Made by a program: the position numbers and the translations under genes
Shown here: in pieces, positions 12,404 to 34,437 of the stretch
How the letters are laid out: each line of letters begins with the position of its first letter
Position numbering within the stretch: position 1 is the first letter of the stretch
The notes under the pieces: model-generated
Database searches by the model: none
Told to the model about the DNA's origin: nothing
What the model saw: the letters and a program-made list of their open reading frames with translations, nothing else
NCBI RefSeq assembly: GCF_007827695.1
Contig: NZ_VITA01000009.1
Span: forward strand, 124,001-188,000
DNA length: 64,000 bases
Direction of reading: 5' to 3'
DNA from: Sinorhizobium medicae
GTDB lineage: Bacteria > Pseudomonadota > Alphaproteobacteria > Rhizobiales > Rhizobiaceae

Positions 12404-13966
12404 ATGAACCAGTTCGACAGGCCAGAGACCTTCGACCCCGAAGCGCTTCGAAAGAAGGTCTCGGAGATCCGGGAGACCACGACCGAACACAGGAACAGAG
12501 CAAGAGGGGATGCCGGGCTCAACCCGCTTGCCAGGCAGATCGCCCTTCAGTTCCGCGCGGACACCTATACGCCGGCGATGATCACCGGCCTGATCCGGCT
12601 TCTGGATTTCTGTGCGCTTTTCGCCATAGGCTACGGCATCAATGCCCAATATGTCGCGCCGACGTTGGAGCAACTGCCGGTCAACCTTCTTATCCTCGCC
12701 GGCGCGCCCGCGCTCTCCGTTGCCGTCATGCAGTTCGCCGACGCCTACCAGGTGCCGGCTCTGCGTGCCTGGCTCAGGATGGCGCCACGCATTCTGGGCG
12801 CCTGGACGGTGGCCTTCGGCATGATTGCGCTCGGCCTGTTCTTTCTCAAATCGGGCCACCTCTACTCGCGTTTCTGGATCGGCGCGTGGTACCTCGCCGG
12901 CGCGGTCTTTCTCATCGCAGAACGCGCGTTCATCGCCTATTCCATCCGCCACTGGTCGCGAGACGGCACCATGGAGCGGCGAGCCGTCGTCGTCGGCGGC
13001 GGCCAGTCTGCAAAGGATCTCATTCGAAAAATAGAACATCAGCCGGACAACGATATCCGGATTTGCGGAATTTTCGACGATCGCGACGAGCGCAGGTCAC
13101 CGAACGTGATCGCCGGTTATCCGAAGCTCGGAACGGTCGACGAACTGGTCGAGTTCGCCCGTCTAGCCCGGATCGACATGCTGATCATCTCGCTGCCGCT
13201 GACGGCGGAAAATCGCATCCTCGAGCTCCTCAGGAAGCTGTGGGTCCTTCCCGTCGATATTCGGCTAGCGGCGCATGCCAACAGCCTTCGCTTTCGGCCG
13301 CGCAGCTATTCGCATGTCGGACAGGTTCCGATGCTGGACATCTTCGACAAGCCGATCGCCGATTGGGATAATGTCGCAAAGCGCTGCTTCGACGTCTTTT
13401 TCAGTCTCGTCGCACTCGCCCTGCTCTGGCCGGTCATGCTCGCCGCCGCCATTGCCGTGAAAGTTACCTCGCCGGGTCCGATCATCTTCAAACAGCACCG
13501 GCACGGCTTCAACAATGAAACCGTCGAGGTCTATAAATTTCGCTCCATGTACACGCATATGAGCGACCCGAGCGCGCGTAACGCCGTAACCAAGAACGAC
13601 CCGCGAGTGACACCCGTCGGGCGCTTCCTGCGCAAATCTTCGATCGATGAGTTGCCACAATTCTTCAATGTGCTGAAAGGCGAGCTCTCACTCGTTGGGC
13701 CGCGTCCTCACGCGGTGCTCGCACAGAGCCAGGATCGAAGCTATTCCGATGTCGTCGAAGGCTATTTCGCCCGCCATCGCGTGAAGCCGGGCGTGACCGG
13801 CTGGGCACAGATCAACGGCTGGCGCGGTGAAATCGACAATGACGAAAAGATCCGGTTCCGGACGGCATTCGACCTCTATTATATCGAGAACTGGTCACTG
13901 CTCCTCGATCTGAAGATTCTCATCCTGACACCGTTCCGGCTGATCAATACGGAAAACGCCTATTGA
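12404..13966 (+). CDS. undecaprenyl-phosphate sugar phosphotransferase (WcaJ/ExoY type)
   Basis: This 520-aa protein is a polyprenyl-phosphate hexose-1-phosphate transferase, the first committed step of repeat-unit synthesis. It has four or five N-terminal membrane helices (about 60-190), a Rossmann-like segment VVVGGGQSAKDLIRKIEH (about residues 209-226) and the C-terminal catalytic domain with KFRSMY, RKSSIDELPQFFNVLKGELSLVGPRPH and VKPGVTGWAQINGWRGE. The ATG at 12404 is preferred over the longer open frame. The next gene overlaps it by 4 bases. Confidence 0.93.
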   Translation: MNQFDRPETFDPEALRKKVSEIRETTTEHRNRARGDAGLNPLARQIALQFRADTYTPAMITGLIRLLDFCALFAIGYGINAQYVAPTLEQLPVNLLILAGAPALSVAVMQFADAYQVPALRAWLRMAPRILGAWTVAFGMIALGLFFLKSGHLYSRFWIGAWYLAGAVFLIAERAFIAYSIRHWSRDGTMERRAVVVGGGQSAKDLIRKIEHQPDNDIRICGIFDDRDERRSPNVIAGYPKLGTVDELVEFARLARIDMLIISLPLTAENRILELLRKLWVLPVDIRLAAHANSLRFRPRSYSHVGQVPMLDIFDKPIADWDNVAKRCFDVFFSLVALALLWPVMLAAAIAVKVTSPGPIIFKQHRHGFNNETVEVYKFRSMYTHMSDPSARNAVTKNDPRVTPVGRFLRKSSIDELPQFFNVLKGELSLVGPRPHAVLAQSQDRSYSDVVEGYFARHRVKPGVTGWAQINGWRGEIDNDEKIRFRTAFDLYYIENWSLLLDLKILILTPFRLINTENAY

Positions 13967-15243
13967 GCGCCGTCATCGCATCCGGGCCGGTCATCCGTCG
14001 TCCTCAGTTGGCGGCGGTTACGCTTGTCGGCTCCGGCCTGGTGACAGTCGGCGTCTTCCTGTCCGGTTTCGTCATCGCCGAGCCCGCGCCCTACGAGGTG
14101 TTCATGGCCGGGCTCGTCGGCATCTGGGCGCTATTCGGCCTCAGGATCTCCCGTTTCACCGCCCCACTCACGGTGCTTTTGGTCCTGTTCATGATCGGCG
14201 GTATTCTGTCGCTGACGGTGATGGCCGATCTTGGGACCGCGCCGATGTACATGGCCGTAACCGGCTTCCTTTGTCTTACGGCCGTTTTTTTTGCAGCCAT
14301 AATAGAAGACCGTCACCAGCGCCTGCCGCTCATTCTCAATGCATGGGTGGCGGCTGCAGTCATTACGGCCCTCCTTGGTATTCTCGGCTATTTCGGCGCA
14401 ATACCGGGTGCGGCGCAGTTCACACTTTATGATCGCGCGAAGGGAGCGTTTCAGGACCCGAATGTTTTCGGACCGTTCCTCGTCGCCCCCACTCTCTACC
14501 TTCTCCACGGTCTTCTGACGCAGCCGATCGGCCGGGCACCCCTGAAGATCGCCGGCCTGCTCGTGCTCACGCTGGGCGTCTTTCTCTCCTTTTCCCGCGC
14601 CGCCTGGGCGCTCGACCTTTTTTGCGTGATTGCGCTCGTCTTCGTCATGTTGCTCAAGCAGCGTAGCGGCCTCTTCCGTTTACGGATCCTCGTGCTGACA
14701 TTGTCCGGGGGCCTGTTCGTCGTGGCAGCGCTTGTGACCGCTCTGCAGTCGGACCAGGTCGCACGCCTCTTTTCAAGCCGCACCCAGCTCGTGCAGGACT
14801 ATGACGGCGGGCATCTCGGGCGGTTCGACCGGCACCGGATCGGCTTTCTGATGTCGATGGAAAGGCCGCTCGGCATAGGCCCGTTGGTGTTCAGCACCAT
14901 GTTTCCGGAAGATGAGCACAACGTGCTTCTGAAAAGCCTGACATCCTATGGCTGGCTCGGCTTCGTGGCGTATGTCACGCTCATTCTCTGGACATTGTCG
15001 CTCGGTTTCCGTTTCCTGCTGCTCGACCGGCCATGGCAACCCTATCTGATGATCGGCTGGATCACGCTTGTCGGCCATGTCGGGATTGGCAACGTAATCG
15101 ACACGGATCATTGGCGCCATTTTTACCTGCTGCTCGGCATCGTCTGGGGGTGCGCCGCGCTCGAATGTCGATATCGGAGACAGGCTCGTGCCGAAACGCC
15201 CGCGCACACGGCAGTTGCCGTAACGCCCCCCACCCCTCCCTGA
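13963..15243 (+). CDS. O-antigen ligase/polymerase-like membrane protein (Wzy/ExoQ type)
   Basis: This 426-aa polytopic protein has about eleven hydrophobic helices. A large periplasmic loop contains DRAKGAFQDPNVFGPFLV and later GPLVFSTMFPEDEHNVLLKSLTSYGW, the pattern of the Wzy_C/O-antigen ligase family. It probably polymerises the lipid-linked repeat units. Translation starts at a TTG that overlaps the upstream stop (TTGA), so it is coupled to the sugar transferase gene. Confidence 0.85.
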   Translation: MSAVIASGPVIRRPQLAAVTLVGSGLVTVGVFLSGFVIAEPAPYEVFMAGLVGIWALFGLRISRFTAPLTVLLVLFMIGGILSLTVMADLGTAPMYMAVTGFLCLTAVFFAAIIEDRHQRLPLILNAWVAAAVITALLGILGYFGAIPGAAQFTLYDRAKGAFQDPNVFGPFLVAPTLYLLHGLLTQPIGRAPLKIAGLLVLTLGVFLSFSRAAWALDLFCVIALVFVMLLKQRSGLFRLRILVLTLSGGLFVVAALVTALQSDQVARLFSSRTQLVQDYDGGHLGRFDRHRIGFLMSMERPLGIGPLVFSTMFPEDEHNVLLKSLTSYGWLGFVAYVTLILWTLSLGFRFLLLDRPWQPYLMIGWITLVGHVGIGNVIDTDHWRHFYLLLGIVWGCAALECRYRRQARAETPAHTAVAVTPPTPP

Positions 15244-15350: not shown

Positions 15351-16385
15351 CTACAGCGTGATCTGCAGCTTCACATCACCCGGCCTACCCTCCGCCGCGC
15401 GATCGAAAGCCGCGACACTTTCTTCGAACGGAAACGTCTCGGTGATGAGCGGCTTCAGGTCGACGCGCCCAGATCCCATCAAAGCGATTGCGCGGTCATA
15501 TTGATGGGCATAGCGAAATACCGTCTCAAACCGGATTTCCTTCGTCGATGCGGTGGATATATCCAGACCAACCGGTTCGACCGGGAGTCCCACAGCAACG
15601 ACGGCACCGCCTGGCCGGGGAAGATCGAGCAATGTCTCCCATGCCTTCGGCGAACCTGAGCATTCGAACACCACATCGGCGCCCCAGCCCTCGGTGAGCT
15701 GCTTCACTTCCTCCGCGAGGTCGCGTTTGCCGATGTTGATCGGCAGGATGCCCTGGTATTGCGCCGCAATGTCTAGCTTCGGTTGCGCGAAATCGGCAAC
15801 AATCACCCGCGCGCACCCTCCGGCGAGCGCCGCGATCGCCACCATGATGCCGATCGGCCCGGCGCCGGTGACCACGGCAGTATCGCCGGGAGCAATCTTC
15901 GCCTTTTGCGCCGCCTGCATGCCGACGGCAAACGGCTCCACCATCGCCCCTTCTGCGAAACTGACTTTGTCCGGCAGCTTATAGGTGTAATTCGCCGAGT
16001 GGACGACGTGCGGAGTCAGGACGCCATGGACAGGAGGCGTCGCCCAAAACGTCACAGCCGGGTCGATATTGTAAAGGCCAAGACGACTGGCGCGCGAATT
16101 CGCGTCCGGAATTCCGGGCTCCATGCACACGCGATCCCCTGCCTTGAGATGCGTCACGTCCTTACCGGTTTCGACGACGACGCCAGCCGCCTCATGCCCG
16201 AGTACCATCGGCGCATTCACCACAAAAGGCCCTATCCGGCCGTGCGTGTAATAATGCACGTCCGACCCGCATATCCCGACCGTGTGAATCTTGATGCGGA
16301 CGTCGTGGGGTCCGACTTCCTGCGGCAGGTCGATATCGCGCAGCGAGAGTTTCCGGATTTGCTCTAGGACGAGTGCTCTGGGCAT
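15351..16385 (-). CDS. zinc-dependent polyol dehydrogenase (xylitol/sorbitol dehydrogenase-like)
   Basis: This 344-aa medium-chain dehydrogenase would oxidise a polyol with NAD+. Catalytic zinc motifs are [13 protein letters not shown] (Cys about residue 39) and [12 protein letters not shown]; the NAD-binding motif is GAGPIGIM (about 174-181). The structural-zinc cysteine cluster is absent and is replaced by the [17 protein letters not shown] loop, as in sorbitol/xylitol dehydrogenases. It stands alone, with no transporter beside it, so the physiological substrate is a guess. Confidence 0.88.
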
Positions 16386-16586: not shown

Positions 16587-16614
16587 AAAATGGTCGGAGC
16601 GGCGGGATTCGAAC
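16587..16614 (-). repeat. truncated tRNA-Pro 3' end, first copy of att-type direct repeat
   Basis: The 28 bases here are identical to 28663-28690. Read on the minus strand they are the T-arm 3' side and acceptor end of a tRNA-Pro (GTTCGAATCCCGCCGCTCC...), followed by the CCA end. The rest of a tRNA does not follow: the sequence diverges after GATTCGAAC. This marks the left boundary of the accessory region. Confidence 0.8.
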
Positions 16615-16986
16615 TCTTATATGGGGTCCTTTTGTCCAGACTGTGGTTCTTCATAGTTTTATGGATTCCCGTAGGAAGAAGCGGATTCTTCTGCTCGAGG
16701 AGGGTTCGCAATTTTGGCTCCTGCTTGGCAGGAAATGCTTTCCCCAATGCCGCTTTAGTAGCTTAATGACGGCATGATGATCGCCTGATTAATCTCGCCG
16801 CGGAACTTGGTGGTCAAAGCGTCGGAATACGCAAACGCACAGTGGATAACCGTTGACACCGATGGGTTACCGATGCCGCCCGGATCGACAACAAGATTGC
16901 TGTTGCAGGGGCGTCGTTAAGGAAACCGCGGGCTATCAGAAGTCGACCGCTGGCGAAGCGGCATCTTTCTTTTCGTGGATCCAATC
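16615..16986. other. non-coding stretch at island left end
   Basis: No open frame with recognisable protein character is visible on either strand in these 370 bases. The stretch lies directly inside the left direct repeat. No integrase or recombination directionality gene is seen next to it. Confidence 0.5.
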
Positions 16987-17244
16987 CTAACCACGCGCCT
17001 CTCCATCAAACGACATCACATCTTCAGGGCGCTTCCCGGAAATAACGATGGCTTCCTGCTTCACGCTCTGCCACCACGGATCATCGTCTTCGTCCAGCCG
17101 TCGAATATCATCGAAGTCCAGCCCGACCACGTTGGGGAGAAAAACTAGTCTTTCCGCCGCATCTCTCAGCCCCTCACGGAGTCCTTCGACCGCTTCAGGG
17201 GGCGGGCTGCTGCCAGACGCCTTGGCCCCCCTCCAACCAGAACA
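16987..17244 (-). pseudogene. 3' remnant of an unknown gene, possibly nucleotidyltransferase-like
   Basis: Between a TGA at about 17247 and the TAG at 16987 there is an 85-codon frame with strongly protein-like content but no ATG, GTG or TTG near its 5' end. The translation includes GLREGLRDAAERLVFLPNVV, LDFDDIRRLDEDDDPWWQSV and a tail around KQEAIVISGKRPEDVM. That tail looks like the end of small nucleotidyltransferase-type proteins, but I am not certain of the family. Its 5' part appears lost. The serine-rich frame on the opposite strand is a shadow. Confidence 0.45.
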
Positions 17245-17481
17245 TCACTGGCCGAAGTTCATCGTGTCCGTCGGCGGCGGGGTAGCTTATCTATCTTTTC
17301 GCCGCCTTCAGAGAACGATTCAGACCACATCTCTCCATCCCAGCCGGGGCCACAAGAACGAGATGAACGTTCCTGGTGCCGGCCGTTGTACGGCCGCGCA
17401 GATGCGATGAGTAAGGCGGGCGTACTCCGTGTCGTGGCGTCGCGGCAGTCTAGTTCCGCCCCGGTGCATTACAGCTTAGGG

Positions 17482-17943
17482 TCATTGTGCGAACTCTTGA
17501 TCAGTGACGAGCTTGCCCCATTCGACGTTCTTGCCGTCCTTCATGTAGGAAATCGCGATGTGGCCCATGCCGGTCTCGTCGGTTGCCCCGTGCCAATGGT
17601 TCACGCCGACCGGGATCCAGACGACATCGCCGGGGCTGATCTCCCGCTTTGCGCTGCCTTCCTGCTGCACCCATCCCTTGCCCGAGGTGACGATCAGGAT
17701 CTGGCCGGCGGGATGCGTGTGCCAGGCGGTGCGAGCCCCCGGAGCGAAGGTTACATGACCGCCTGTGCCGTGCGTAAACTCGTTCGCCGGAAACAGCGAA
17801 TCGACGACGACATGCCCACTGAACAACTTGGCGTCGCCTAGCGCGGATGGCGCTGATGCATTCGGTGTGATCTCGATGTTTTGCGCATGAGCTAATGCCG
17901 TCGACAGCGTGACAAGCGATGCGGCTGCGATCAGTTTCTTCAT
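17482..17943 (-). CDS. secreted cupin-domain protein
   Basis: This 153-aa protein has a clear signal peptide ([21 protein letters not shown]). A single cupin barrel follows, with metal-ligand histidines in [15 protein letters not shown] and in the second motif GVNHWHGAT. It resembles the small cupins found beside carboxymuconolactone decarboxylase-like proteins and aldo/keto reductases. It is the last gene of the minus-strand cluster 23.6-17.5 kb. The substrate is unknown; periplasmic location is inferred from the signal peptide. Confidence 0.82.
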
Positions 17944-18031
17944 CTCGTTTCCTTTCCGAAGCTCGGCAGGCCTATGATGGTCAAACACTTCGGCAGTTCG
18001 CCGAAACCTCAAGGTTAAGCGGAGCGGTCCG

Positions 18032-19099
18032 TCAGTTCTGCGCTGATAGTCTGACCAGTCGGTCCTTCGAAGGTCCTTGCCCTCGTGGTGATCGATTGCT
18101 GGTGATGAGCAGGAGGTCGTCGTCGATTGGAAGCACATGCCGGACACGCTCACCTAAGCTGACGACGGGCTCGAGCGTTCGGTCTTGCCGATCGAGCACA
18201 TAAAGTCCGCGCCCCTGGAGGGCCGTTACCAGGAGTTCGTTGCCGGCGAACGCTATTCCCGACGGCGCCCAGGTGTCGCCGCCCGAATGGACGAACGGCG
18301 GCTGCATACCCTCCTGGGCTTCATCGCCCGAGATGATTGGCCAGCCGTAATTGGCGCCGGGCGCAATCAGATTGATCTCATCGAGAGCGGCCTGGCCGTG
18401 TTCGGCGACGAACAGCTCACCCTCACCGTTCCAGGCCAGTCCTTGCGGATTGCGGTGGCCATAGGAGTACACGAACGAGCCCTGAAACGGATTGTCCTCG
18501 GGAACGCCACCGGCAAGCGTCAGGCGGAGAACTTTTCCGGCGAGACTTTGGAGATCCTGCGGGCGCTCGTAATTTTCGGTCCACCCCGTCGTGACATAGA
18601 GATGGTCGTCAGGACCGATGGCGATGCGGCCGCCATTGTATAGTCGATGGCCAGGGATGGCGTCGACGAGCACAGCGGTTTCACGCCACGTGTTCCCGTC
18701 AAATCTGGCGGCAACGACCCGGTTGGCTGGTTCCGAGCCGGATGAATAGGAATAATAGAAGAATGCCCGACCGCTATCGGCGAAGTCCGGCGCAAGCGCG
18801 ATGCCAAGCAGCCCCGCACCGCCTTCGGTTCTCAGCGGATCGGATGTTTGGAGGGTGGACCGCTGAACGTTCCCGCCCTCGATAATCACGACGGTACCAG
18901 CTTTTTCGGTGAGGATCAGCCGTTCGCCGTCGCGAACAATGTCCCAAGGGTAGTCAAGGCCGTGGGCCAGGACGCTGGAGCTCCATGCACCCTCACCACG
19001 GTCCAGGATAGGTGTGGAGTCCTGCGCCATCGATGTGCCAGATAGACAGCATCCCTCCACTAAGATCGACAGTGCGGTGCAAAACAATCGCTTTCTCAT
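18032..19099 (-). CDS. PQQ-dependent sugar dehydrogenase-like beta-propeller (Glucose/Sorbosone DH family)
   Basis: This 355-aa secreted protein has an N-terminal signal sequence ending about SGTSMAQ. The glucose/sorbosone dehydrogenase propeller signatures follow: LDYPWDIVRDGERLILTEK, EGGAGLLGIALAPDF, YGHRNPQGLAWNGEGELFVAEHG and GANYGWPIISG. It would oxidise an aldose or related alcohol in the periplasm with PQQ as cofactor. ATG at 19099 gives the cleanest signal peptide. It lies in the same direction as the aldo/keto reductase upstream. Confidence 0.85.
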   Translation of the reverse strand: MRKRLFCTALSILVEGCCLSGTSMAQDSTPILDRGEGAWSSSVLAHGLDYPWDIVRDGERLILTEKAGTVVIIEGGNVQRSTLQTSDPLRTEGGAGLLGIALAPDFADSGRAFFYYSYSSGSEPANRVVAARFDGNTWRETAVLVDAIPGHRLYNGGRIAIGPDDHLYVTTGWTENYERPQDLQSLAGKVLRLTLAGGVPEDNPFQGSFVYSYGHRNPQGLAWNGEGELFVAEHGQAALDEINLIAPGANYGWPIISGDEAQEGMQPPFVHSGGDTWAPSGIAFAGNELLVTALQGRGLYVLDRQDRTLEPVVSLGERVRHVLPIDDDLLLITSNRSPRGQGPSKDRLVRLSAQN

Positions 19100-19160
19100 G
19101 CCTGTGCTTCTCTTCTCCGGCAAAAAGGGCATGCGTAATCCTGTCCCGCCAAGGCGGTAG

Positions 19161-20561
<1,401 letters not shown>

Positions 20562-20642
20562 TGGGAGCGCTCCCTGATTATGGGCATAGCAGCGCCTTGC
20601 AGCGCGCCGGCGAAGAAGATCCTTCGAGCATCGGGCATGGCA

Positions 20643-20714
20643 TCACCCTGCATACTGCTCGTCTGACACATGCTCGAGCCAGTCCACGAGCTTGCCATCC
20701 TTGTCACCGCCAGA
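20643..20714 (-). pseudogene. C-terminal remnant of a cupin gene
   Basis: Directly after the TAA of the gene at 20715, and in the same frame, 23 codons read SGGDKDGKLVDWLEHVSDEQ plus YAG and a stop. The WLEHVSDEQYAG ending is typical of the C-terminus of cupin proteins in this kind of cluster. The rest of that gene is missing, so a deletion appears to have joined it to the end of the upstream gene. Confidence 0.5.
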
Positions 20715-21494
20715 TTAGCCGCGCCGCTTTTCAAAGACGGCCTTCGCCACCGGCAGCGCCGACATCGCGTTGGGCCAGCCTGCGTAGAAAGCCAGATGGG
20801 TGATGACTTCGGCGGCCTGCTCTTCGGTCAGCCCATTGTCCAGGGCTTTGTTCAGGTGAAAGGTGATCTGCTCGACCTGGCCAACCGAGATCAGTGCGGC
20901 GACCGTGACAAGGCTGCGATCGCGTGGCGCCAGGCCGGGGCGCAGCCATAGGTCGCGGAAAAGATAGTCCGTCGTGTACTGAACGAGGCCGGGGGCAACG
21001 CTGCCGAACTGGTTGCCGACGGTGGTTGCGCGTTGTGTTTCCGCCTCTTCGTCCAGCGGCAACGGCGTGGATTCGACGGCAGCGAGCTGATCCTGACTGA
21101 TGCCGCGCTTGGCGAAGGCTTCGCTCACGGGACCGATCGTGGCCATGGCTTTTCCCCAGCCGGAATAATAGGCAAGATGCGTGATCGTCTCCGAGATCTC
21201 GGAAGGCCTCACTCCGTTCTCAAGCGCTTGATCGGCGTAGTAGGTGAGAGCCGGGGCTTCTCCCCGCGCAATCAGCGCGGCGATCGTCACAAGGCTGCGA
21301 TCGCGCCGATTGAGGCCGGGGCGCTGCCAGACGTCGCCATACAAGCGTTGCTGCGTATACTGCTCGAGGGCGGGCGCCACCGAGCGAACCTGATCGGGCG
21401 AGAAACGGCGACCTTCAACATTGGGCTGTTGAGCCCCTGCGTTCGAGGCGGTCATCATCATAACTCCTATGAGCGGGGCGATTAGGCGTTTCAT
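20715..21494 (-). CDS. secreted carboxymuconolactone decarboxylase (AhpD-like) family protein, two domains
   Basis: This 259-aa protein starts with a signal peptide (MKRLIAPLIGVMMMTASNAGAQ) and has two copies of the CMD domain. Each has RPGLxxRDRSLVTxAALI and an ITHLAxYxGWxxAM helix (about residues 60-130 and 175-250). The cysteines of the AhpD CxxC redox motif are absent, so peroxidase activity is unlikely. The reaction is unknown. The gene belongs to the redox cluster controlled from the divergent LysR side. Confidence 0.85.
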   Translation of the reverse strand: MKRLIAPLIGVMMMTASNAGAQQPNVEGRRFSPDQVRSVAPALEQYTQQRLYGDVWQRPGLNRRDRSLVTIAALIARGEAPALTYYADQALENGVRPSEISETITHLAYYSGWGKAMATIGPVSEAFAKRGISQDQLAAVESTPLPLDEEAETQRATTVGNQFGSVAPGLVQYTTDYLFRDLWLRPGLAPRDRSLVTVAALISVGQVEQITFHLNKALDNGLTEEQAAEVITHLAFYAGWPNAMSALPVAKAVFEKRRG

Positions 21495-21568
21495 CGGGGT
21501 CTCCTGGAATTCGTGGCTGGTTGTCGAGAGGGCAATCAGGTGTTCAAATACGAGCGGGAGGAGACCTC

Positions 21569-23195
<1,627 letters not shown>

Positions 23196-23202
23196 CTGCT
23201 CA

Positions 23203-23592
23203 TCACCGCTTGGCGCTGAGCTGGAAGTTGTCCGTCTCGAAGAGCTTGCGCGACGTGATCATGTTCTTGGTGGTCTCGACGTATTTCCTGAAATGCGGCG
23301 ATTCCCGGTGGGCCTCGTAGGCGGCCTGGTCGGCATACATCTCGAAGAATCTGAGATGATTCGGCTGACCCTTGATCGACACCGCGTAAAGCGCCAGGAC
23401 GCCCGGCTCGACGCGGATGGATTCCTCCATCTCCTCTTTCACGGCGGCCGAGTAGGCGGCCATCTGCGCCGGGTCGATTTCTAGTTCCGCGATCCGGATC
23501 ACGGGACCCTTCGCCTCCTGTGCGGCGACCGGTTGGACGGCAAGCGGAGCGATGATCAAGGCTGCGACGATGAGAAGACTTTTCAAGCCCAT
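23203..23592 (-). CDS. secreted antibiotic-biosynthesis-monooxygenase (ABM/Dabb-like) protein
   Basis: This 129-aa protein has a signal peptide (about 25 residues, to VAAQ) and one ferredoxin-like ABM domain: VIRIAELEIDPAQMAAYSAA, EPGVLALYAV and MYADQAAYEAHRESPHFRKY. Such domains are small quinol or polyketide monooxygenases, or heme-degrading-like proteins; the substrate here is unknown. It is the promoter-proximal gene of the minus-strand cluster and lies 126 bases from the divergent LysR gene. Confidence 0.82.
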   Translation of the reverse strand: MGLKSLLIVAALIIAPLAVQPVAAQEAKGPVIRIAELEIDPAQMAAYSAAVKEEMEESIRVEPGVLALYAVSIKGQPNHLRFFEMYADQAAYEAHRESPHFRKYVETTKNMITSRKLFETDNFQLSAKR

Positions 23593-23718
23593 GACACGGC
23601 TCCGAACTGATTTTGGTTTCCGAAGACGCCAGTGCCTCCTGTACGATGAAATATAGACCTCGCCGTTTGTTTCGATTAGACGTCAATATGAGATTGCACT
23701 TATATCCAGGATCAATAA

Positions 23719-24611
23719 ATGCAACGCGATGAACTGGGTGACCTGCTGGCCTTTCTGGCCGTTGCCGAAGAGAAGAGCTTCACCAGGGCTGCTGCAAGGC
23801 TCGGTACTTCGCAATCCTCGCTCAGCCTCATTCTCAAGCGTCTGGAGGCCCGTCTGGGCGTCCGCCTGCTTACACGCACGACGCGAAGCCTGGCTCCGAC
23901 GAACGCAGGAGAACAACTGCTGGCCACGTTAGGTCCGGCGCTCGGTTCTATAGAAGCCCAGTTGTTGGCGCTCGGGGAATTCAGGGACAGGCCGGCAGGA
24001 AGTTTCAGGATTACTGCCGGCCAGCACGCGATCGATACGATCCTCTGGCCGAAGCTCGCGCCATTTCTTCTTGAGTACCCCGACATCAAGGTCGAGCTGG
24101 TTGCCGAGTCCGCTCTGACGGACATCGTGACTGAACGGTTCGACGCCGGCGTCCGACTGGGCGACCAGGTCGAAAAGGACATGATCGCGGTCAGGATTGG
24201 CCCGCTGGCAAGGATGATCGTCGTGGCGGCTCCATCCTGCTTCGTGGATCGTGCTCGACCGCAGGTACCGCAGGATCTGACGGGACACCGCTGCATTAAC
24301 CTTCGACTGCCAAGCTACGGCGGCTTCTACGCGTGGGAGTTCGAACGTGATGGACATGAGGTCCGCGTCAGGGTTGACGGCCAGGTGGCCTTCAACGGGG
24401 TACCGCAGCTCGTGAATGCAGCACTGGACGGTTTCGGACTCGCCTATGTCCACGAGGATGTCGTCCGGGAGCATCTCAGGACGGGCGGCTTGTGCAGATA
24501 CTCGGAGACTGGACTCCTCCGTTTCCGGGCTACCACCTCTACTACCCATCCCGCCGACATCCCGCGCCAGCGTTCACCCTGCTGGTGGAGGCGCTGAGAC
24601 ATCAAACATGA
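23719..24611 (+). pseudogene. LysR-type regulator with a frameshift in the last 40 codons
   Basis: The N-terminal winged helix-turn-helix is typical: LGDLLAFLAVAEEKSFTRAA, LGTSQSSLSLILKRLEARLG and LLTRTTRSLAPTNAGE. The inducer-binding domain follows normally to about residue 255. From about 24480 the frame becomes unlike a LysR protein and ends at 24597. The +1 frame reads LVQILGDWTPPFPGYHLYYP and AFTLLVEALRH, the normal C-terminus, to a TGA at 24611. One base is missing near 24483-24490. A shortened protein may still bind DNA. It is divergent from the redox cluster, which it probably controls. Confidence 0.8.
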
Positions 24612-24780
24612 CGACGAGCCGCCGGTCAGTATCCCGTAGCGGCCGCCTCAAGGCTCTCCCACGGCATGGAATAGCCCAGGCAAGCGATGGCGTCGCGCCA
24701 CTAGAACCACGTGGCCTCCGGTAGCCACTCGCTCCCTCAGTCGCGTCATGTCGCAGCCGCTGTAAATGAGGTCCGCGCAA

Positions 24781-25173
24781 TCAACTCACAAATCTGAACA
24801 TAAGGGCATGCAGCTTTGGGCTTCGGATTCCAGTCGTAGGTATGAAACCGCTTATCCGCGGTTCAACGATCGAACGCCGGTACACCACAGAGCGGGAACT
24901 CTCTAGGGATGCCCTATGGCGAGGCAGATACGTCGAAGCGAAAAATGTCTTGCCCGTTCCGGGAGGACCAACGAGAAGGGCTCCACGATCGACATCCTTC
25001 CAATTAAGCGTGCCTGCTTTCCAATCGTCCAGGTCCTGAGCCAGTGCCGAAACCCAAGGGCGCACCGTCGCAAAACCTGGCAGATCGCTAAGGTAGCCGA
25101 ACCGGGAACTTATCGGTCGCCGACCGGGCCGAATGGCAAACATGAGACCTTCGACGAGGCCCGCGCGCGGCAA
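24781..25173 (-). pseudogene. truncated AAA ATPase gene
   Basis: About residues 27-85 match an AAA-family ATPase: YLSDLPGFATVRPWVSALAQ, DLDDWKAGTLNWKDVDRGAL and an intact Walker A LVGPPGTGKT. Just after the P-loop (TFFAS) the sequence loses protein-like character, and no Walker B or sensor motifs follow. The 3' part of the ATPase is missing, so this is a remnant. Its 5' end overlaps, in antisense, the coiled-coil frame on the plus strand. Confidence 0.7.
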
Positions 25174-25536
25174 GTGGCCGAGGCGGCCGCACGCGAGGCA
25201 GCAGCGCAGGCGGTCGCGACCGATCAGCGCTTTGCAGCACTCGAACGGCGCTTCAAGGCTCGCCTCGACGAGGTCACCGAGGCCGTTACTTTGGCATTCG
25301 GCGACCTTCGCGGCGAAATGGACGACCGCTTCCGCGAGGCGCAGACGGACTTTTCCAGTTTCCTTAAGGAATCGCGCGCGCTGATCAGGCAGTCGCGATC
25401 AGAGGCGAGCGAGCGGCGGACGCAGATGGCGGCCATCCAACGCGATCACGAGCGGCTGGCGCTTGAGGTCGAGAAGCTGAAACTGGAATTCAGCGAGGAA
25501 CACGGCAAAGGCAAAAGTCTGAGGATCGCGAAATGA
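24916..25536 (+). CDS. coiled-coil protein of unknown function (start uncertain)
   Basis: From about codon 60 to the end the frame encodes a charged coiled coil (EARARQVAEAAAREAAAQAV, FAALERRFKARLDEVTEAVT, HERLALEVEKLKLEFSEE). The first 55 codons lie antisense to the AAA ATPase remnant and do not look like protein. The real gene has probably lost its 5' end in the same rearrangement, or starts at a GTG near 25174. It ends four bases inside the next gene (ATGA overlap), which suggests co-translation. Confidence 0.45.
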   Translation: MARQIRRSEKCLARSGRTNEKGSTIDILPIKRACFPIVQVLSQCRNPRAHRRKTWQIAKVAEPGTYRSPTGPNGKHETFDEARARQVAEAAAREAAAQAVATDQRFAALERRFKARLDEVTEAVTLAFGDLRGEMDDRFREAQTDFSSFLKESRALIRQSRSEASERRTQMAAIQRDHERLALEVEKLKLEFSEEHGKGKSLRIAK

Positions 25537-25754
25537 CCAAGCTCCAGCATGAACCACTTCCCGACGTCCTCGCGCGCCATCGCCATGGTTTCGGCGGCGG
25601 TTTCCTCGCTCTCGTAATCGCGCCCGATGGCTCAGGCCTTTCTTGTCGCCCGGTATCAGGTGAAACGACGGACTGTGAGCGTTTGAGCCGCGACGAGATG
25701 ATCGAAGCCATTGTCGAGCTTTACGGTGGACTGGCTTCGTTCCGAAGGAACTGA
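25533..25754 (+). CDS. small hypothetical protein
   Basis: This 73-aa protein starts at an ATG overlapping the upstream stop (ATGA) and contains FGGGFLALVIAPDGSGLSCR and LSRDEMIEAIVELYGGLA. I do not recognise the family. The overlap with the coiled-coil gene indicates a two-gene unit. Confidence 0.5.
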   Translation: MTKLQHEPLPDVLARHRHGFGGGFLALVIAPDGSGLSCRPVSGETTDCERLSRDEMIEAIVELYGGLASFRRN

Positions 25755-25770
25755 ATCCGCGACCTTCGCT

Positions 25771-26082
25771 TCAGAAGGGCCACTGACTTACACGTTTTTG
25801 ATTTTCACAGAGAAGGATGTCCGTCCAATCAATGGGCTCATGCTCCACTCGAAGAATTGGCGGCCTACCAGCGACGAAGTAGTTCTTACCTTTTTTTAGG
25901 TCCTTTTCTATGAGTTTATGATCAAGTATTAAGCACTCAGAAAAATCGCAGTTCTCAAACGCATATCCATAGTCGTTGTGGTCTTCGAGCGCGGTAACCG
26001 ATTCAACCATTTTTATTCCACAACTGTTGAATCGGCATCTATGAAATCTATCGTTTACTGAGACCGTGTCCCAGTTAGCCAA
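25771..26082 (-). CDS. pentapeptide-like C-terminal part of a split membrane protein
   Basis: This frame opens at a TTG (26082) and gives 103 residues with two short stretches resembling pentapeptide repeats: FHRCRFNSCGI and FENCDFSECLIL. It overlaps the 3' end of the gene at 26055-26789 in a different frame. That gene has the usual N-terminal half of pentapeptide-repeat membrane proteins, so the two are probably halves of one former gene, or are joined by a frameshift. I see no strong ribosome binding site for the TTG. Confidence 0.5.
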   Translation of the reverse strand: MANWDTVSVNDRFHRCRFNSCGIKMVESVTALEDHNDYGYAFENCDFSECLILDHKLIEKDLKKGKNYFVAGRPPILRVEHEPIDWTDILLCENQKRVSQWPF

Positions 26083-26789
26083 TCTAGTCGTGAGAAGCTA
26101 ACATTAATAATATTGTCAATATCGTAATGACTATCTTGGGCAAATACGCCGCCCACATAATGTATCTGCTTGAAACCCGGAATGAAGAACCAGTATGGTT
26201 CGGAATCGTCATCAGGATTGTCGGCATTCATAGTGCAGTCAAACCAGATGTGGCGTTCGGTGTTGAACCCTTTTTGATCGCCAGTGCGCATAACACCGGA
26301 GATTTCAGGCCTGTGCCGGTTTGCGTGGCTGGCGCTCATATGATCTTCTATGAAGTCCGCAAGCAGGTTCATACTTTGGAACGCATAAGTTCTGTCGTTG
26401 CCCGCAATTAGGACACCGAGCGTTGCGACGCCTGCCGACACGTGCGAGGCCTTCTCGTGCTCACTGAGCAATTTAGCCCCCTCCTGCAATAGCTTCGCAC
26501 GGCCCTCACTTTCCGCTTGGTTTGCCTGACGGCTGTTTATTGAACCGCGCCAACTTGCCGTGCAGAAGGTAACAACGGCAAATAGCGCTACTCCGAAAGG
26601 TGCAAGAGCTTGAGCTTTCTTCAGGTCGGGATCACCATCGAAGCCATCCACGAAAATCCAGAGGAATGCAGCAAAGATTGCGATAGCCGTGAAGATTGCG
26701 CTCGTGATCGCGAGTGCATACCACTGGTTTTCGGTAATGGACGGCCAGTCACTCGTGTCTTTTTGACCGAGTTGTTCTTTTGATATCAT
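26055..26789 (-). CDS. membrane protein, N-terminal part of pentapeptide-repeat-type protein
   Basis: This 244-aa protein has two membrane helices (about residues 25-48 and 64-82). A charged helical linker follows with SINSRQANQAESEGRAKLLQ, then ATLGVLIAGNDRTYAFQSMN and LADFIEDHM. This order, two helices, a Gln/Ala/Arg linker, then a helical block, is what usually precedes the pentapeptide repeats of a family of membrane proteins. The repeats themselves appear only in the overlapping frame downstream. The function of such proteins is unknown. Confidence 0.6.
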   Translation of the reverse strand: MISKEQLGQKDTSDWPSITENQWYALAITSAIFTAIAIFAAFLWIFVDGFDGDPDLKKAQALAPFGVALFAVVTFCTASWRGSINSRQANQAESEGRAKLLQEGAKLLSEHEKASHVSAGVATLGVLIAGNDRTYAFQSMNLLADFIEDHMSASHANRHRPEISGVMRTGDQKGFNTERHIWFDCTMNADNPDDDSEPYWFFIPGFKQIHYVGGVFAQDSHYDIDNIINVSFSRLDWLTGTRSQ

Positions 26790-26798
26790 ATCCGTCCT

Positions 26799-27422
26799 TC
26801 ACACATTTGCGCCGCCAAGATAGCTTTCGGGTGAGAGTTTGCGGAATGTTCTTTCAAAGGCGTCAGCAGCTTCCGCAACCTCGTCCGCGAGGCGATCTAC
26901 CTCCGCAATTTTCTGTGATGTTTCCTTGCTGTGCCAATCCGATATTCGTTCTTGTTCTGGTGCGAGAGACCACCATTCATCACGATGACTAATAGGATTG
27001 CCATACTGATCTATCCTCTCGCACAGTGCGGCGGCTTTTTGGGAAATCTCCGCAACAAGATTGTCTAGTGACGCATTCTCGAACTCATGTTCCGGGCCTT
27101 GCCGTTCCAGAAAGTCTCTGACGAAGTCTAACGATGCATAACGAAATGATGCTCCGAATGAGTTTTCCCGGAGATATCTCTTGTTGCGCTCAGTGAAGCA
27201 ATCACGGACCTTCTGGCCAAGCACTACATCGTGGGGGTGGAGCAAGGCTGTTCGCGGCTCAGGCGCAACGGCTTTGGTTTCGGCGAATGCCCAAGCGCCG
27301 AATAGGCCAAGGAATGCTAGGATGGGCTCAAACAAAGTGTCACCGGCTCGATACGAATAACCAATCCATCCAGCCGCGATCATGCAGGCAACGCCGCCTA
27401 GCAAACTTCCAACTCGCCACAT
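26799..27422 (-). CDS. hypothetical membrane-anchored protein
   Basis: This 207-aa protein has two N-terminal hydrophobic helices (about 5-22 and 31-48). A charged, mostly helical cytoplasmic part follows, containing FTERNKRYLRENSFGASFRY and a C-terminal coiled-coil-like stretch with IAEVDRLADEVAEAADAFER. I do not recognise the family. It lies 9 bases upstream of the split pentapeptide-type gene on the same strand, so the two are probably co-expressed. Confidence 0.6.
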   Translation of the reverse strand: MWRVGSLLGGVACMIAAGWIGYSYRAGDTLFEPILAFLGLFGAWAFAETKAVAPEPRTALLHPHDVVLGQKVRDCFTERNKRYLRENSFGASFRYASLDFVRDFLERQGPEHEFENASLDNLVAEISQKAAALCERIDQYGNPISHRDEWWSLAPEQERISDWHSKETSQKIAEVDRLADEVAEAADAFERTFRKLSPESYLGGANV

Positions 27423-27468
27423 TTGCCACCCTCGAATAAATATCAGACCTGTAGACAGACGCCGAAAA

Positions 27469-27496
27469 CCCGCCGGAAACTCATTATTCCGGCGGG
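27469..27496 (-). terminator. intrinsic terminator of the small HTH operon
   Basis: CCCGCCGGAA (27469-27478) pairs perfectly with TTCCGGCGGG (27487-27496). On the minus strand the hairpin is followed by TTTT. It lies 16 bases after the stop of the 45-aa gene. Confidence 0.8.
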
Positions 27497-27512
27497 CGGG
27501 TTACCTGGGTGG

Positions 27513-27650
27513 CTATTTGGCCTTTTTCTCGTCTTGAGACAGGACAGAAGCGGCGAGTTTCTTGGCGTCCGCGTGCGTGGGCTTCTTACTACCGTTCAAA
27601 ACCTTTGCAGCAAGCCTGGACGTAATGGAGCTTGATTGCTTCTTCGCCAT
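27513..27650 (-). CDS. 45-aa basic protein, partner of the HTH gene
   Basis: This short protein begins MAKKQSSSITSRLAAKVL and ends with SVLSQDEKKAK; it is rich in Lys, Ser and Ala. Its ATG overlaps the stop codon of the HTH gene (TGATG), and an intrinsic terminator follows. The pair therefore looks like a real two-gene operon, although the protein is too short to assign. Confidence 0.55.
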   Translation of the reverse strand: MAKKQSSSITSRLAAKVLNGSKKPTHADAKKLAASVLSQDEKKAK

Positions 27651-27826
27651 CACAGACCTGCCGCCGGCGCAACATCGCCGAATTTCTTACCGGTCTTGAT
27701 CTCGCTCACGCGTCCCTGATTGATTTTGAACATGGCCGCAATTTCGTGCTGCGCCATGTTGTTGAGCAGGTAGCGCTTGATCTTAGCTGCCATCTCCGGC
27801 GTTACGTCCGGGGAGACTCTTCGCAT
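27650..27826 (-). CDS. 58-aa HTH-domain protein
   Basis: This small protein has a helix-turn-helix, KIKRYLLNNMAQHEIAAMFK followed by NQGRVSEIKTGKKFGDV. The GRVSEI recognition helix resembles small HTH proteins common in rhizobial genomes. It is translationally coupled to the 45-aa gene downstream. ATG at 27826 starts the conserved part; the longer open frame upstream is not protein-like. Confidence 0.7.
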   Translation of the reverse strand: MRRVSPDVTPEMAAKIKRYLLNNMAQHEIAAMFKINQGRVSEIKTGKKFGDVAPAAGL

Positions 27827-28188
27827 GCGGGTAGGCCTCCTTGGGGCCCGCCCGGCTTGTTCAGCGTGGCAAATCACTATAGGGTCTTCTTGTTCAGGGA
27901 GAGACCTTACAGTCTTACCAGCCTGCCGCGCCGGGATTGCTTGTGTGCGGCTCCACGAGTTGTCCGACGGGCTGTCCCGTCGGGCGCTCGAATCATTTCG
28001 AGCACATCCCAATTTACGGCAAACTCTGGTTGTAGAAAAAGCTGTCAATCGACTTTTTCACAAGGATTTGCGCTCCGATTAATTTAGCTGTGCATGCGGT
28101 GTGGAAAACCAGACTGGCGCGGCTTTGTTATTGACTCTGGAATCGAATCAACTGCTCCCAACAATGCTCGCTTGCAGAGCCTGTTGCT
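27827..28188. other. intergenic region, no gene seen
   Basis: These 360 bases separate two minus-strand HTH genes. Open frames exist on both strands but they are low in protein character and mutually antisense. The region probably contains the promoter of the small HTH operon. Confidence 0.4.
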
Positions 28189-28452
28189 TCACCGGCCGGC
28201 GCGCGGCTGGCATCCCGGCGCAAAACGTTGCTCCAGATCGTACCGGCGAGTCGGATCGCCATTGGGAAAATGCTGCCGATAGAAACTGCGGATTGAGGAT
28301 ATCACCCGGAACGACGGGTTGCGGGCTTCGCCAGCCATGATCCGCGTAATCGCGCTCGCGCCGACATGCGATCCTTCGGCAATCTGTCGGCGCGTCATCC
28401 CGGTCTCTTCCAGTCGGGCGATCATTGCAGCGATATCGCGGATATCGTCCAT
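28189..28452 (-). CDS. XRE-like HTH protein
   Basis: This 87-aa protein has the helix-turn-helix ETGMTRRQIAEGSHVGASAI followed by TRIMAGEARNPSFRVISSI. It resembles a short Cro/CI-type DNA-binding protein with a basic tail. It is the last gene before the second tRNA-Pro repeat. It may regulate the island or serve as an excision/repression factor; neither is shown by the sequence. Confidence 0.65.
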   Translation of the reverse strand: MDDIRDIAAMIARLEETGMTRRQIAEGSHVGASAITRIMAGEARNPSFRVISSIRSFYRQHFPNGDPTRRYDLEQRFAPGCQPRAGR

Positions 28453-28662
28453 GGGGCTCACTCCTTCGGCGTGTGATTCGCAAAGGGCGTCAGTCGAGCC
28501 GCGCAACGATTCAGTTGATAACCCGCCCGACGCCTCGGCCTTAAAAGGCAAGAAGGATGATAGCATCGCCTGACCCAAAACTGACCCAATTTTTGGGTCA
28601 GGCGGAAAAATCCGTTAGCCGGCTCATCGCCGGCTTGGGTCAAGTATCTGATTTCCTTTTGG

Positions 28663-28711
28663 AAAATGGTCGGAGCGGCGGGATTCGAACCCACGACCCC
28701 TTGACCCCCAG
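28663..28711 (-). repeat. truncated tRNA-Pro(GGG) 3' half, second att-type direct repeat; prophage left boundary
   Basis: Positions 28667-28710 on the minus strand read as the 3' half of a tRNA-Pro: the anticodon loop CTGGGGG, the 3' side of the anticodon stem, a variable loop, an intact T-arm (GTGGGTTCGAATCCCGC) and the acceptor end with CCA. The 5' half is absent. The first 28 bases repeat 16587-16614 exactly. This is the expected structure of an attL left by integration into a tRNA 3' end. Confidence 0.85.
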
Positions 28712-28908
28712 GAGAGAGGTCTAGTTTGCTGGATGCCCTGATAGACAAGGGTTTGCGGCATGTCCAGAAGGTCTGTTCGGGAATTATTTCGGGACTCGGC
28801 GACTCGGTTTTGTGTTCTTGAGCTTTCCTTCCAACGCGGGCCCTAGAACCACGTCATTCCTCCATAGTACGATCGTCGGAGCTGTAAGCGTTCGGAGGAA
28901 TCCCCTAA

Positions 28909-29658
28909 ATGAATGTGAGTCCGGATTGGGGACTGGAGATAGTCGTCAATGAAGTTGAGAGGTCTGCTTGGACGGAAAATTTGAGGGCGCCATTTGAGCC
29001 CTTCGCTGACCTGTTCTACAGCCAGAACGGGCCCATTGTGATCCGCTCTGTCGAATTTGTTGGGCTGACAACCGCGGAAGATGTCTATTTCACGGGCAAG
29101 GACTTGCTCCTGCGCCTGAACGCGAGCATGGAAACCATTGCGGGTCTACAACCCGCCATGATCGGCGCTGTGGTCGATTTCAGAGGCCCTCACCCGAAAC
29201 GGACCAACATCATTGAAGCAAAGGGCATTGAGTCCAAGCCCTTCTTTGGGCGGGCCACGATTACCCAGGTCGATTTGCAAGGACGGCGTATCGAAGCTCC
29301 CGCGTCAGCGTCCCCGGCGCAAGAGCAGATGCAAGCTAGCCTTTTTGATCCCGCTATTGGGGCTGCCATAAAATTCCTGTCGGGCGAGCCCAGCTGGGCG
29401 GAAATATACAAGGCCATCGAGGCGCTCGACAAGACTGGTTTGGCAAGCAGCGCGATATCAGAGAACAAGAAGTCGCTCATGAGGAGAACAGCAAATTCTG
29501 AGGAACGGCATTGGAAAAAGGATCTCGGATTTACGCCTATGCAGCTGGCGGAAGCTCGAGTGCTTATGAAGCGGTGGCTCAGAATGGCCGTTAAGGAGCT
29601 AATCAAGGAGCGATCTACGTCAGCGCAAAAACCGCCGCATCGTCCGCCCGTTCTCTGA
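28909..29658 (+). CDS. hypothetical protein at prophage left end
   Basis: This 249-aa protein is not recognised. Residues 1-125 look like mixed alpha/beta (VRSVEFVGLTTAEDVYF-like segments, FRGPHPKRTNIIEAKGI). The C-terminal 100 residues are helical and basic (AIEALDKTGLASSAISENKK, MKRWLRMAVKELIKE). It is the first gene inside the tRNA-Pro repeat, a place where integrases often lie, but no tyrosine-recombinase R-H-R-Y motifs are visible. Its end overlaps the convergent DNA ligase by 44 bases. Confidence 0.55.
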   Translation: MNVSPDWGLEIVVNEVERSAWTENLRAPFEPFADLFYSQNGPIVIRSVEFVGLTTAEDVYFTGKDLLLRLNASMETIAGLQPAMIGAVVDFRGPHPKRTNIIEAKGIESKPFFGRATITQVDLQGRRIEAPASASPAQEQMQASLFDPAIGAAIKFLSGEPSWAEIYKAIEALDKTGLASSAISENKKSLMRRTANSEERHWKKDLGFTPMQLAEARVLMKRWLRMAVKELIKERSTSAQKPPHRPPVL

Positions 29659-30589
29659 TTCCCTTGAACGATGCGTGTCGCAGCTTGCCGTCATCGGTCC
29701 AAGCGCGATACTCGACTTCTGCGACGAGTACCGGCTCGGTGAAGACGGCATTCTTCCGCCTCAGGCTCACTGCCGGTTTTTTCGTAATGATGGATGCGAG
29801 GACATTGCGCAGTTCGCGCGATAGATCGTGTGACCAGCCAGTTCCGCAGCCGCCGACATAGACGAGCTCTCCGTCCTTGCGCGCGGCCAGCAGCAGCCGA
29901 CCCAGATGACCGGGCACGGTTGACGGCTCGAAGCCGACGATCACAAAGCTATCCCGGCGCTTGCAGGTGATCTTCTGCCACCACTCGCCTCGGCCCGAGC
30001 GGTATGGCTTCTCAATGTGCTTGGCGATGATGCCTTCGAGGCCATGCGCGCAGGCGACCCGGAAGAATTCGTCGCCGTCGGCCTGCACTTCTTCCGACAG
30101 TCGAATGGCCCCTTCCCGCCCGGCGACAAGAGGCTCGAGCAGTCGCCGGCGCTCGCGCAGCGGCAGCCGGCGCAGATCACGGCCGTCGAGGTAGAGGAGA
30201 TCAAAGGCATAGAAGACGATGGCGCCGGCTTCATACGGAGACGGCAAACGCCCGAGCGCCCGTTGCAGCATACCGAAATCCGAGCGGCCATGGTCGTTCA
30301 GAACGACCGCCTCCCCGTCGAGGATAGCGGTTTTCACGGCGAGCCGCCGCGCGTCGTCTGCGATCGAGGGAAACTTTCCGGTCCAATCGTAGCCGCCGCG
30401 CGTGAGTATCCGCACCCGGCCGGGCTCGATGTGGACGGCGATCCGATATCCGTCCCACTTCACCTCATAGGCCCAATCCGGTCCCTTCGGTGGCTTGTCG
30501 ACGAGCGTTGCAAGGGAGGGATCGACCCGCGCCGGCATGGGATCGATTGGCGCGATATCGCGAGGCTTCTTTGAGGATGCTCTGGCCAT
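29615..30589 (-). CDS. ATP-dependent DNA ligase (LigD/LigC-like)
   Basis: This 324-aa enzyme has the nucleotidyltransferase motif I KWDGYR with adenylated Lys44, DGEAVVLND (motif III), the motif IV-V region [20 protein letters not shown] and a C-terminal OB-fold domain with FVIVGFEPS and [10 protein letters not shown]-like strands. It is the ligase-only form; the polymerase and nuclease domains of LigD are absent. It would seal nicks with ATP. ATG at 30589 gives the family length. It belongs to the early or cargo part of the prophage. Confidence 0.9.
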
Positions 30590-30719
30590 AGCCCCATTAA
30601 CGCACAGCCCCGCGAAAAGCCGAATTGACTCTTTCGGCGTAGAGAACATAATGAGAACATTCATCGGCGATGCGGCGCGCCATCCATCAATCAGCGGCGA
30701 ATGCAGAAAGGCGCGCATC

Positions 30720-31172
30720 ATGCGAACACCTGAAGATGAAATAGGAACCGCAATTGAAGTTGATCTTGCGGTAATGCCCCCACACCAAAGGCGGGCATAT
30801 GCTGGCCTCGACCAGTTTCGCCGTCCTGTCGAGGTGCGCGGCGTCCAGGAACTCGCCAGGGGAATTGCCGAATCCTTCGGGGCCTTTGCCATCTTCGATG
30901 TCGAGACGGTATTGCGGTCTCCGGCGATTGCGCCATTCGTTACGCAGACGCTCTACGCGATCCCGCTCGAATTGAGGCGGGCCGCCTGCGACCGCGATCG
31001 ACTAAAAGCGGAAAGCGCGCGAAAGGAGATGGCGCGTATAATCTCGGCCGCACTTCTGGCGCGATACCATTTCGAACCCCTGAAACACGTCAGCGCCTCC
31101 TGCCATCCGAATTGGGAACAGGCATTCGAGCAGCAGTTTGGCGCCGGCCGAGGAGGCGATCGACATGAGTGA
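30720..31172 (+). CDS. hypothetical protein
   Basis: This 150-aa protein is mainly helical, with [20 protein letters not shown] and [21 protein letters not shown] do not recognise it. ATG 30720 has AAAGG upstream; an ATG at 30651 in the same frame is an alternative. The next gene starts 8 bases before its stop, so the two form a unit. Confidence 0.5.
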
Positions 31173-31398
31173 CGAACTGGGAGCCAAGCCCCACATTGGG
31201 GCCGGCCCGTATGTCCATTACTGCGAACACCTAGGCTGCACGAAATGGGGCAGCTTTGGCTTCGCAGTCGGCCGCGGCGAGCCGAACTGGTTCTGCACTG
31301 AGCATCAGCCCGAATGGAACAATCGGCCCGACTACCCAAGCGCCGTCGACGCCGCGCGGAATCGATACGGCCACGCAACCCACCCTAGTGCAGGCTAG
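31165..31398 (+). CDS. small Cys/His-rich hypothetical protein
   Basis: This 77-aa protein has the pattern [18 protein letters not shown] followed by [11 protein letters not shown]. The spacing of the cysteines and histidines suggests a small zinc-binding knuckle. Its start overlaps the end of the preceding gene. Similar short proteins are common in rhizobial genomes and prophages; their role is unknown. Confidence 0.55.
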
Positions 31399-31905: not shown

Positions 31906-31913
31906 GCTTCGAG

Positions 31914-32102: not shown

Positions 32103-32184
32103 GCATTTTCTCCCCCAGCATCGATGAAGGATAGGAGCCGACCGGCCACCGACAAGGGCTGGAACCTCATGCCCGGTGTTGGGA

Positions 32185-32574: not shown

Positions 32575-32633
32575 GCCTCTTTCCCCACGTCGTTCTATTC
32601 TTAACCTGCGCGCTGGTTATGTCGAGGCGTCTA

Positions 32634-34418: not shown

Positions 34419-34437
34419 TTTTGCATCTCACGCAAAA

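Follow-up and report, generated by a model that had tools for sequence, protein, structure and literature searches.

Truncated tRNA-Pro ends beside a phiLM21-family prophage suggest repeated integration at one tRNA gene of Sinorhizobium medicae

We analysed a 64,000-nucleotide stretch of a Sinorhizobium medicae genome (the window; positions 124001-188000 of contig NZ_VITA01000009.1, abbreviated C9, with coordinates above 64000 continuing rightwards), in which two truncated 3' ends of a tRNA-Pro gene, copy 1 and copy 2, lie in series to the left of a prophage. The locus probably records at least three integrations at tRNA-Pro(GGG), by an element termed E1, a satellite-like element termed E2 and a phage of the phiLM21 family, together with a later replacement by megaplasmid-like DNA. 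An E1-type element would have inserted in the T-loop, separating the final 24 nt and the 3' flank, now copy 1, from the rest of the gene. E2 would then have inserted at the tRNA, presumably in the anticodon loop like its relatives, and supplied the 3' half that is now copy 2. The tyrosine integrase of the phage would next have recombined the phage attachment site (attP) with the anticodon-loop region; copy 2 would result on the left, and on the right an intact tRNA rebuilt with a phage-supplied 3' half. About 7.9 kb of megaplasmid-like DNA would have replaced the greater part of E1 together with E2's left half. The features concerned are, from left to right:

16587..16614, minus strand: copy 1, the last 24 nt of tRNA-Pro (16591-16614) and 4 bp of 3' flank, broken in the T-loop
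16615..16685: putative left-end stub of E1, 86% identical to Sinorhizobium saheli (G018) over 101 bp including copy 1
16695..24592: megaplasmid-like segment, with plasmid matches to 16695-16814 and 17462-24592 and none to 16815-17461
24934..25092: fragment of an AAA ATPase gene, 98% identical to genome G026 over 159 bp, inside a 676-aa AAA-type open reading frame (ORF) as judged by eye
25093..25536, plus strand: E2 gene 1, 57.6% identical over 158 positions to G002, and 87% at the DNA level over 333 bp to Sinorhizobium sp. C101
26055..27422, minus strand: two ORFs (244 and 207 aa) with no assigned function
28189..28578, minus strand: E2 helix-turn-helix (HTH) regulator gene (PF01381, 3.3e-5), 56-59% identical to G002 and G008, and 80.6% at the DNA level over 381 bp to C101
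28661..28711, minus strand: copy 2, the left attachment site (attL) of the prophage with its 51-bp core, identical to C9:204463-204513 at the intact tRNA
28712..64000, on to 80513 outside the window: phiLM21-family prophage, with its integrase at 79197-80339 (plus strand) and the intact tRNA-Pro(GGG) at 80469-80545 (minus strand)

Two tRNA-Pro fragments with different break points

The first-pass annotation, made from the sequence alone, had reported a 28-bp repeat in the same orientation, and 16587-16614 and 28663-28690 indeed agree at 28 of 28 positions. This is the longest exact direct repeat of the window, and it exceeds chance, because 20 first-order Markov simulations reach only 15-19 bp. 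Both copies had been read as truncated tRNA-Pro 3' ends on the minus strand, with copy 2 extending to the anticodon loop, and comparison with the intact gene (C9:204469-204545) bears this out. Copy 2 is identical to it and its flank over 51 bp, 45 nt of which lie within the tRNA, whereas the match of copy 1 is exact over 28 bp, or 97% over 34 bp. The two breaks thus differ in position, that of copy 1 being in the T-loop and that of copy 2 at the anticodon loop. ARAGORN recognised no complete tRNA in the window and, left of 16.5 kb, no tRNA in the ~36 kb to the left of copy 1 (the window part plus 20 kb left of the window). The intact tRNA-Pro(GGG) and the tyrosine integrase, which the first-pass annotation had predicted to the right of the window, were both found there by extending the sequence rightwards, and the intact gene is the sole match in this genome to an anticodon-arm pattern allowing up to three mismatches.

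A phiLM21-family prophage at the intact tRNA

From copy 2 to its right attachment (att) site the prophage measures about 51.8 kb, and its tyrosine recombinase gene ends ~130 bp before the intact tRNA-Pro(GGG). Ten proteins compared with PHROGs include a terminase large subunit, portal, head morphogenesis, virion structural protein, head-tail adaptor, tape measure, tail fibre and integrase, while the protein encoded at 60641-61105 matches families of unknown function only. The best match among the four phage records found is phiLM21 (NC_029046; 81.9% over 41% of the 24.9 kb tested), whose integrase is 82% identical over 370 aa and whose attP is 98.4% identical to the right att region over 64 bp. 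The 51-bp repeat with an intact tRNA, the related integrase and attP and the related structural genes assign the prophage securely, as far as sequence can, to the phiLM21 family; it looks complete, and it is the ordinary part of the locus. phiLM21 itself is reported to be integrated into tRNA-Pro(GGG) (PMC5537653), and the available text of PMC12429752 describes a 64-bp attP with 45 bp of tRNA and places one of 25 phiLM21-like prophages (a frequency of 0.04) at tRNA-Pro(GGG). The prophage is the youngest arrival, as previously proposed, because its att core is flanked by E2 on one side and by the rebuilt tRNA on the other. It additionally encodes a 543-aa protein that contains RTX calcium-binding repeats (32787-34418; PF00353, 2.2e-33) and an ATP-dependent DNA ligase of the non-homologous end-joining type (29615-30892; TIGR02779), an enzyme also annotated in phiLM21.

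Copy 1 and the tRNA-splitting element of S. saheli

The 71 bp directly inside copy 1 are common to the window and S. saheli LMG 7837, where they form the left junction of a ~3.4-kb insertion (about 2598-6024 of locus L038) that splits tRNA-Pro(GGG) at the same T-loop point as copy 1. This insertion encodes a 448-aa tyrosine recombinase (PF00589, 1.7e-8) and also holds an IS3 fragment and an HTH ORF. Near its right end lies a complete, divergent tRNA-Pro(GGG), and the remainder of the host tRNA follows beyond that end. When the S. saheli flanks are joined over a 5-bp overlap (CGAAC), they yield a 77-nt tRNA-Pro(GGG) that is accepted by ARAGORN and differs from the gene of genome G004 at one of 77 positions; joining the ends of the insertion gives TATAA-CGAACTC-TTATA, a symmetric, core-like junction. 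The anticodon-arm pattern has two matches in S. saheli, the split gene and the inserted tRNA, and a backward-read control also has one match there. The insertion thus broke the host tRNA gene of S. saheli and brings a possible substitute, which would presumably be expressed.

The tRNA parts of the two genomes differ in their T-arms: the 24 nt of copy 1 equal the intact gene of the window genome, and the S. saheli part fits the 5' part of the split gene in that genome and almost equals G004. Different T-arms, each fitting its own lineage, suggest two independent insertions at the same point. The window shares with S. saheli both the left end and the T-loop junction, and tblastn with the S. saheli recombinase (E 0.01) detected no related recombinase in the C9 stretches examined, window included; the window would thus hold at most a stub of E1.

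For E1 elsewhere, a scan of genome contigs for its recombinase gave one locus, that of S. saheli itself, and a search of genomes of the order at E 1e-30, run without a positive control, gave none in 150. Against plasmids, tblastn returned 35 records, of which the best, a Methylomonas plasmid, has a match of 30% identity that neighbours conjugation genes. The left-end pattern (up to two mismatches) occurred in two of 394 family genomes, a set without S. saheli, namely the window's own genome and G375; the latter match reads as part of an unrelated sequence and was taken as chance. No exact left-end pattern was present in viral contigs. At the DNA level the S. saheli element matched 797 plasmid records, and the 12 matches listed all cover one ~240-bp stretch that is annotated as IS3 transposase in seven of them, so that the element contains a fragment of an insertion sequence.

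Megaplasmid-like DNA between the two ends

Within about 10 bp of the E1 stub a segment of ~7.9 kb begins, with an insert of 0.65 kb, whose two matched pieces adjoin in S. medicae WSM1115 (93.7% over 7.1 kb and 88.5% over 122 bp). In S. meliloti M162, psymA is 90.7% identical to the first piece (16695-16814) and lacks part of the second. Overall, 31 plasmid records match 16560-24650, two of which cover at least 80%, and contig C27 of the same genome carries a shorter relative of the segment (97% over 1.3 kb); no plasmid match was obtained for 16810-17470 and 24590-25095. The genes are metabolic, with a cupin, a sorbosone dehydrogenase, aldo/keto reductases, a DUF2255 protein, a carboxymuconolactone decarboxylase and a LysR regulator. 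From its junctions, the segment would have taken the place of the missing parts of E1 and E2.

The shortness of the stub and its abrupt passage into megaplasmid-like DNA would also suit a different origin, in which stub and copy 1 were not inserted in this lineage but received from another strain through homologous exchange, a process that is common in rhizobia. The tRNA part of copy 1, however, has the T-arm of this lineage and not that of S. saheli, which would restrict the donor to near relatives, and we consider exchange unlikely.

To the right of the segment lies the AAA ATPase gene fragment. By eye, the HTH ORF of the S. saheli insertion (L038 3066-3374) is nearly identical to an ORF of G026 (L071 8660-8968) that adjoins the AAA gene in question; E1 cargo may be the source of the fragment.

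A relic of a satellite-like element beside copy 2

The stretch 25093-28578 is, judged by gene content and order, a putative relic of E2. The open frame of gene 1 starts at 24916, in the foreign fragment, and the order of gene 1 and the HTH gene is the same in G002, G008, Sinorhizobium sp. C101 and the window. For the 244- and 207-aa ORFs, Pfam, PHROG and NCBIfam gave no match above chance level. In G002 (L067 9507-19205) a complete relative of about 9.6-9.7 kb lies between 55-bp direct repeats of tRNA-Leu(UAA) and encodes a tyrosine integrase, an AAA protein, an HK97-type capsid, tape-measure and VanY domains and HTH proteins. G008 has a 50-bp tRNA-Lys(CUU) repeat 10.5 kb from the tRNA, the second copy of which ARAGORN also reads as tRNA-Lys, and C101 has no long direct repeat in the 18.4 kb around its E2 locus. 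In three of five E2 loci (G002, G008-Lys and C101) a tRNA 3' end lies 90-141 bp from the HTH region; the HTH gene of the window is 83 bp from copy 2, which fits E2 as the supplier of the 3' half of copy 2.

More widely, the loci L067 (G002), L068-L070 (G008) and L092 (C101) are small tRNA-associated elements with HK97-type capsid and tape-measure/VanY genes, possibly phage satellites; relatives of the tape-measure protein occur in four of 33 genomes, that of G028 being partial (29%). The part in the window holds no recognisable capsid, tape-measure/VanY, ATPase or integrase gene, and tblastn with the G002 integrase on 14.9-31.9 kb reached E 0.96 at best. Since the tape-measure/VanY protein of the relatives resembles the tape measure of phage 16-3 (27%), the E2 part could instead be what is left of an ordinary prophage. 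The G002 relative has just about 9.7 kb between its tRNA-Leu repeats, yet possesses its own integrase and capsid, and we regard a decayed prophage as a possible but doubtful origin, preferring a satellite-like E2.

The locus in other Sinorhizobium genomes

The tRNA-Pro gene and its flank were matched in 32 of 33 genus genomes, the window's own included. In all 12 relatives whose tRNA regions were compared, 16.7-28.6 kb is absent from the locus, and S. saheli is the only one with shared sequence at copy 1, ~100 bp (16585-16685); an ancestral chromosomal origin of 16.6-28.7 kb, the outcome that would have spoken against the first-pass annotation, finds no support among them. Whole-genome matches of the relatives to 16615-24700 (among the matches listed) and 24650-28660 are short or moderately similar and lie elsewhere. 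Two further features stand to the left of copy 1:

12325..15203, plus strand: conserved chromosomal left flank, matched in 33 of 33 genus genomes, own included
15351..16385, minus strand: zinc-type alcohol dehydrogenase gene (PF08240 and PF00107), between the flank and copy 1

Among the matches listed, the alcohol dehydrogenase gene has relatives at 67-69% identity, all at other places. Directly after the conserved flank gene, 15239-15327 is a short repeat with many matching places across the genus genomes.

Phage remnants and flanks at the tRNA were scored in 29 of the 33 genomes (G005, G026, G018 and G030 were left out, having no locus in the set, pattern match or tRNA match). Six of them (G000, G003, G013, G014, G017 and G023) have parts of a phiLM21-type integrase no more than 1.5 kb from the tRNA 3' end, and these six score at least 10 against the phiLM21 3' flank, as does G001, although it has no such piece there; the other 22 score 9 or less. 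The integrase pieces and phiLM21-like flanks across the genus therefore mark tRNA-Pro(GGG) as a recurrent target of phiLM21-type phages. A phiLM21-type integrase fragment also lies outside the prophage att site of G013 (L042) and beside the intact tRNA of G014 (L039), which makes a second instance of older phage relics adjoining tRNA-Pro(GGG). As judged from match strands in 32 genomes, the tRNA and its small neighbour gene have three arrangements relative to the left flank: as in the window (8), both inverted (13), and tRNA as in the window with the small gene inverted (11).

Weighing the integration history

The first-pass annotation had proposed an island and a prophage, integrated one after the other, and its prophage stands. 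The single tRNA-bounded island between the copies does not, as different elements and break points are found at its ends, and two successive integrations are too few, at least three being needed. A single genomic island at tRNA-Pro with copy 1 as attL, followed by one prophage, would account for two fragments in series and in the same orientation, and the case of S. meliloti KH46, in the text available of PMC11476347, has this form. The copies of the window, in contrast, break at different tRNA positions, and the parts between them match three different sources. We rejected 16.6-28.7 kb as one island: it is missing from the locus of the relatives, but its end repeats do not match, its middle is megaplasmid-like and it contains no recognised integrase. 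An origin as one island plus one prophage is accordingly improbable.

Several observations nevertheless weigh against a history of at least three integrations. Neither Pfam on the ORFs compared nor tblastn with the S. saheli and G002 enzymes revealed a recombinase of E1 or E2 in 16.6-28.7 kb, and blastn-short did not find the left att site of E2 itself in the window. No E2 relative provides a match for the flank of copy 2, since these relatives use other tRNA targets. Two of the five E2 loci depart from the usual arrangement, the tRNA of G008-Glu being in the other orientation and G008 L070 having none in 15 kb. Moreover, the outer flank of copy 1, which may be native, fits phage-free relatives only weakly: its scores are 12 (G016), 11 (G004) and 10 (G021) for relatives that lack a phage piece at the site, and 6 for phiLM21, against which 200 shuffles reach up to 10. 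The order of E1 and E2, for its part, rests on position.

An E1 that behaved in this genome as it did in S. saheli would have split the tRNA, and a later restoration would then be required, which the att site of E2 or of a phage, carrying a 3' half, could have provided. We therefore put forward, tentatively, that E1 is an integrative element that splits tRNA-Pro(GGG) in the T-loop without restoring it, bringing a whole substitute, and that the gene was later healed by such an att site; one parasite would then have repaired a host gene broken by another, unrelated one. Healing predicts an anticodon-side remnant to the left of E2, which blastn-short did not find (apart from copies 1 and 2, the matches among the 15 listed are 9-10 bp); this neither helps nor excludes the idea, because the stretch has since been replaced.

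Comparison with known systems

Like phiLM21, the prophage sits at tRNA-Pro(GGG), with an att site that includes the same 45 nt of this gene, and it has related integrase and structural genes, but matches phiLM21 at the megablast level over just 41% of the 24.9 kb tested. The E2 relic resembles the elements of G002, G008 and C101 in having gene 1 and the HTH gene in the same order beside a tRNA, and differs from them in its lack of recognisable capsid, tape-measure/VanY, ATPase and integrase genes. With the 3.4-kb element of S. saheli the window has in common the left end and the T-loop break point, but not the recombinase, the right end or the tRNA-Pro.

Integration commonly takes place at tRNA 3' ends, and as a rule, in the text available of PMC4383910, an element restores the tRNA gene it enters. 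The S. saheli element looks like an exception to this rule, and copy 1 looks like a scar left by a similar event. The tRNA-splitting element is the unusual part of the locus, represented in the window by its stub. A literature search covering titles and abstract openings found no element that splits and replaces a tRNA, from which we make no claim that such elements are unpublished.

Serial integration of an island and a phiLM21-like prophage at a tRNA is already known from S. meliloti KH46, where, according to the same portion of PMC11476347, both sit at tRNA-Lys(CUU) with an att copy in the middle. The two serial integrations at one tRNA are common to both cases; the 49-bp and 46-bp repeats of KH46 agree, whereas the fragments of the window break differently and the stretch between them is composite. 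The window differs in its mixed break points and in its connection to a T-loop element carrying a tRNA of its own. The break point and flank of a tRNA fragment allow old integrations to be counted and ordered where a simple search for direct repeats would see a single island, and a single tRNA-Pro gene, hit repeatedly, appears in this way to keep a record of its own invasions by a prophage, two older elements and plasmid-like DNA.

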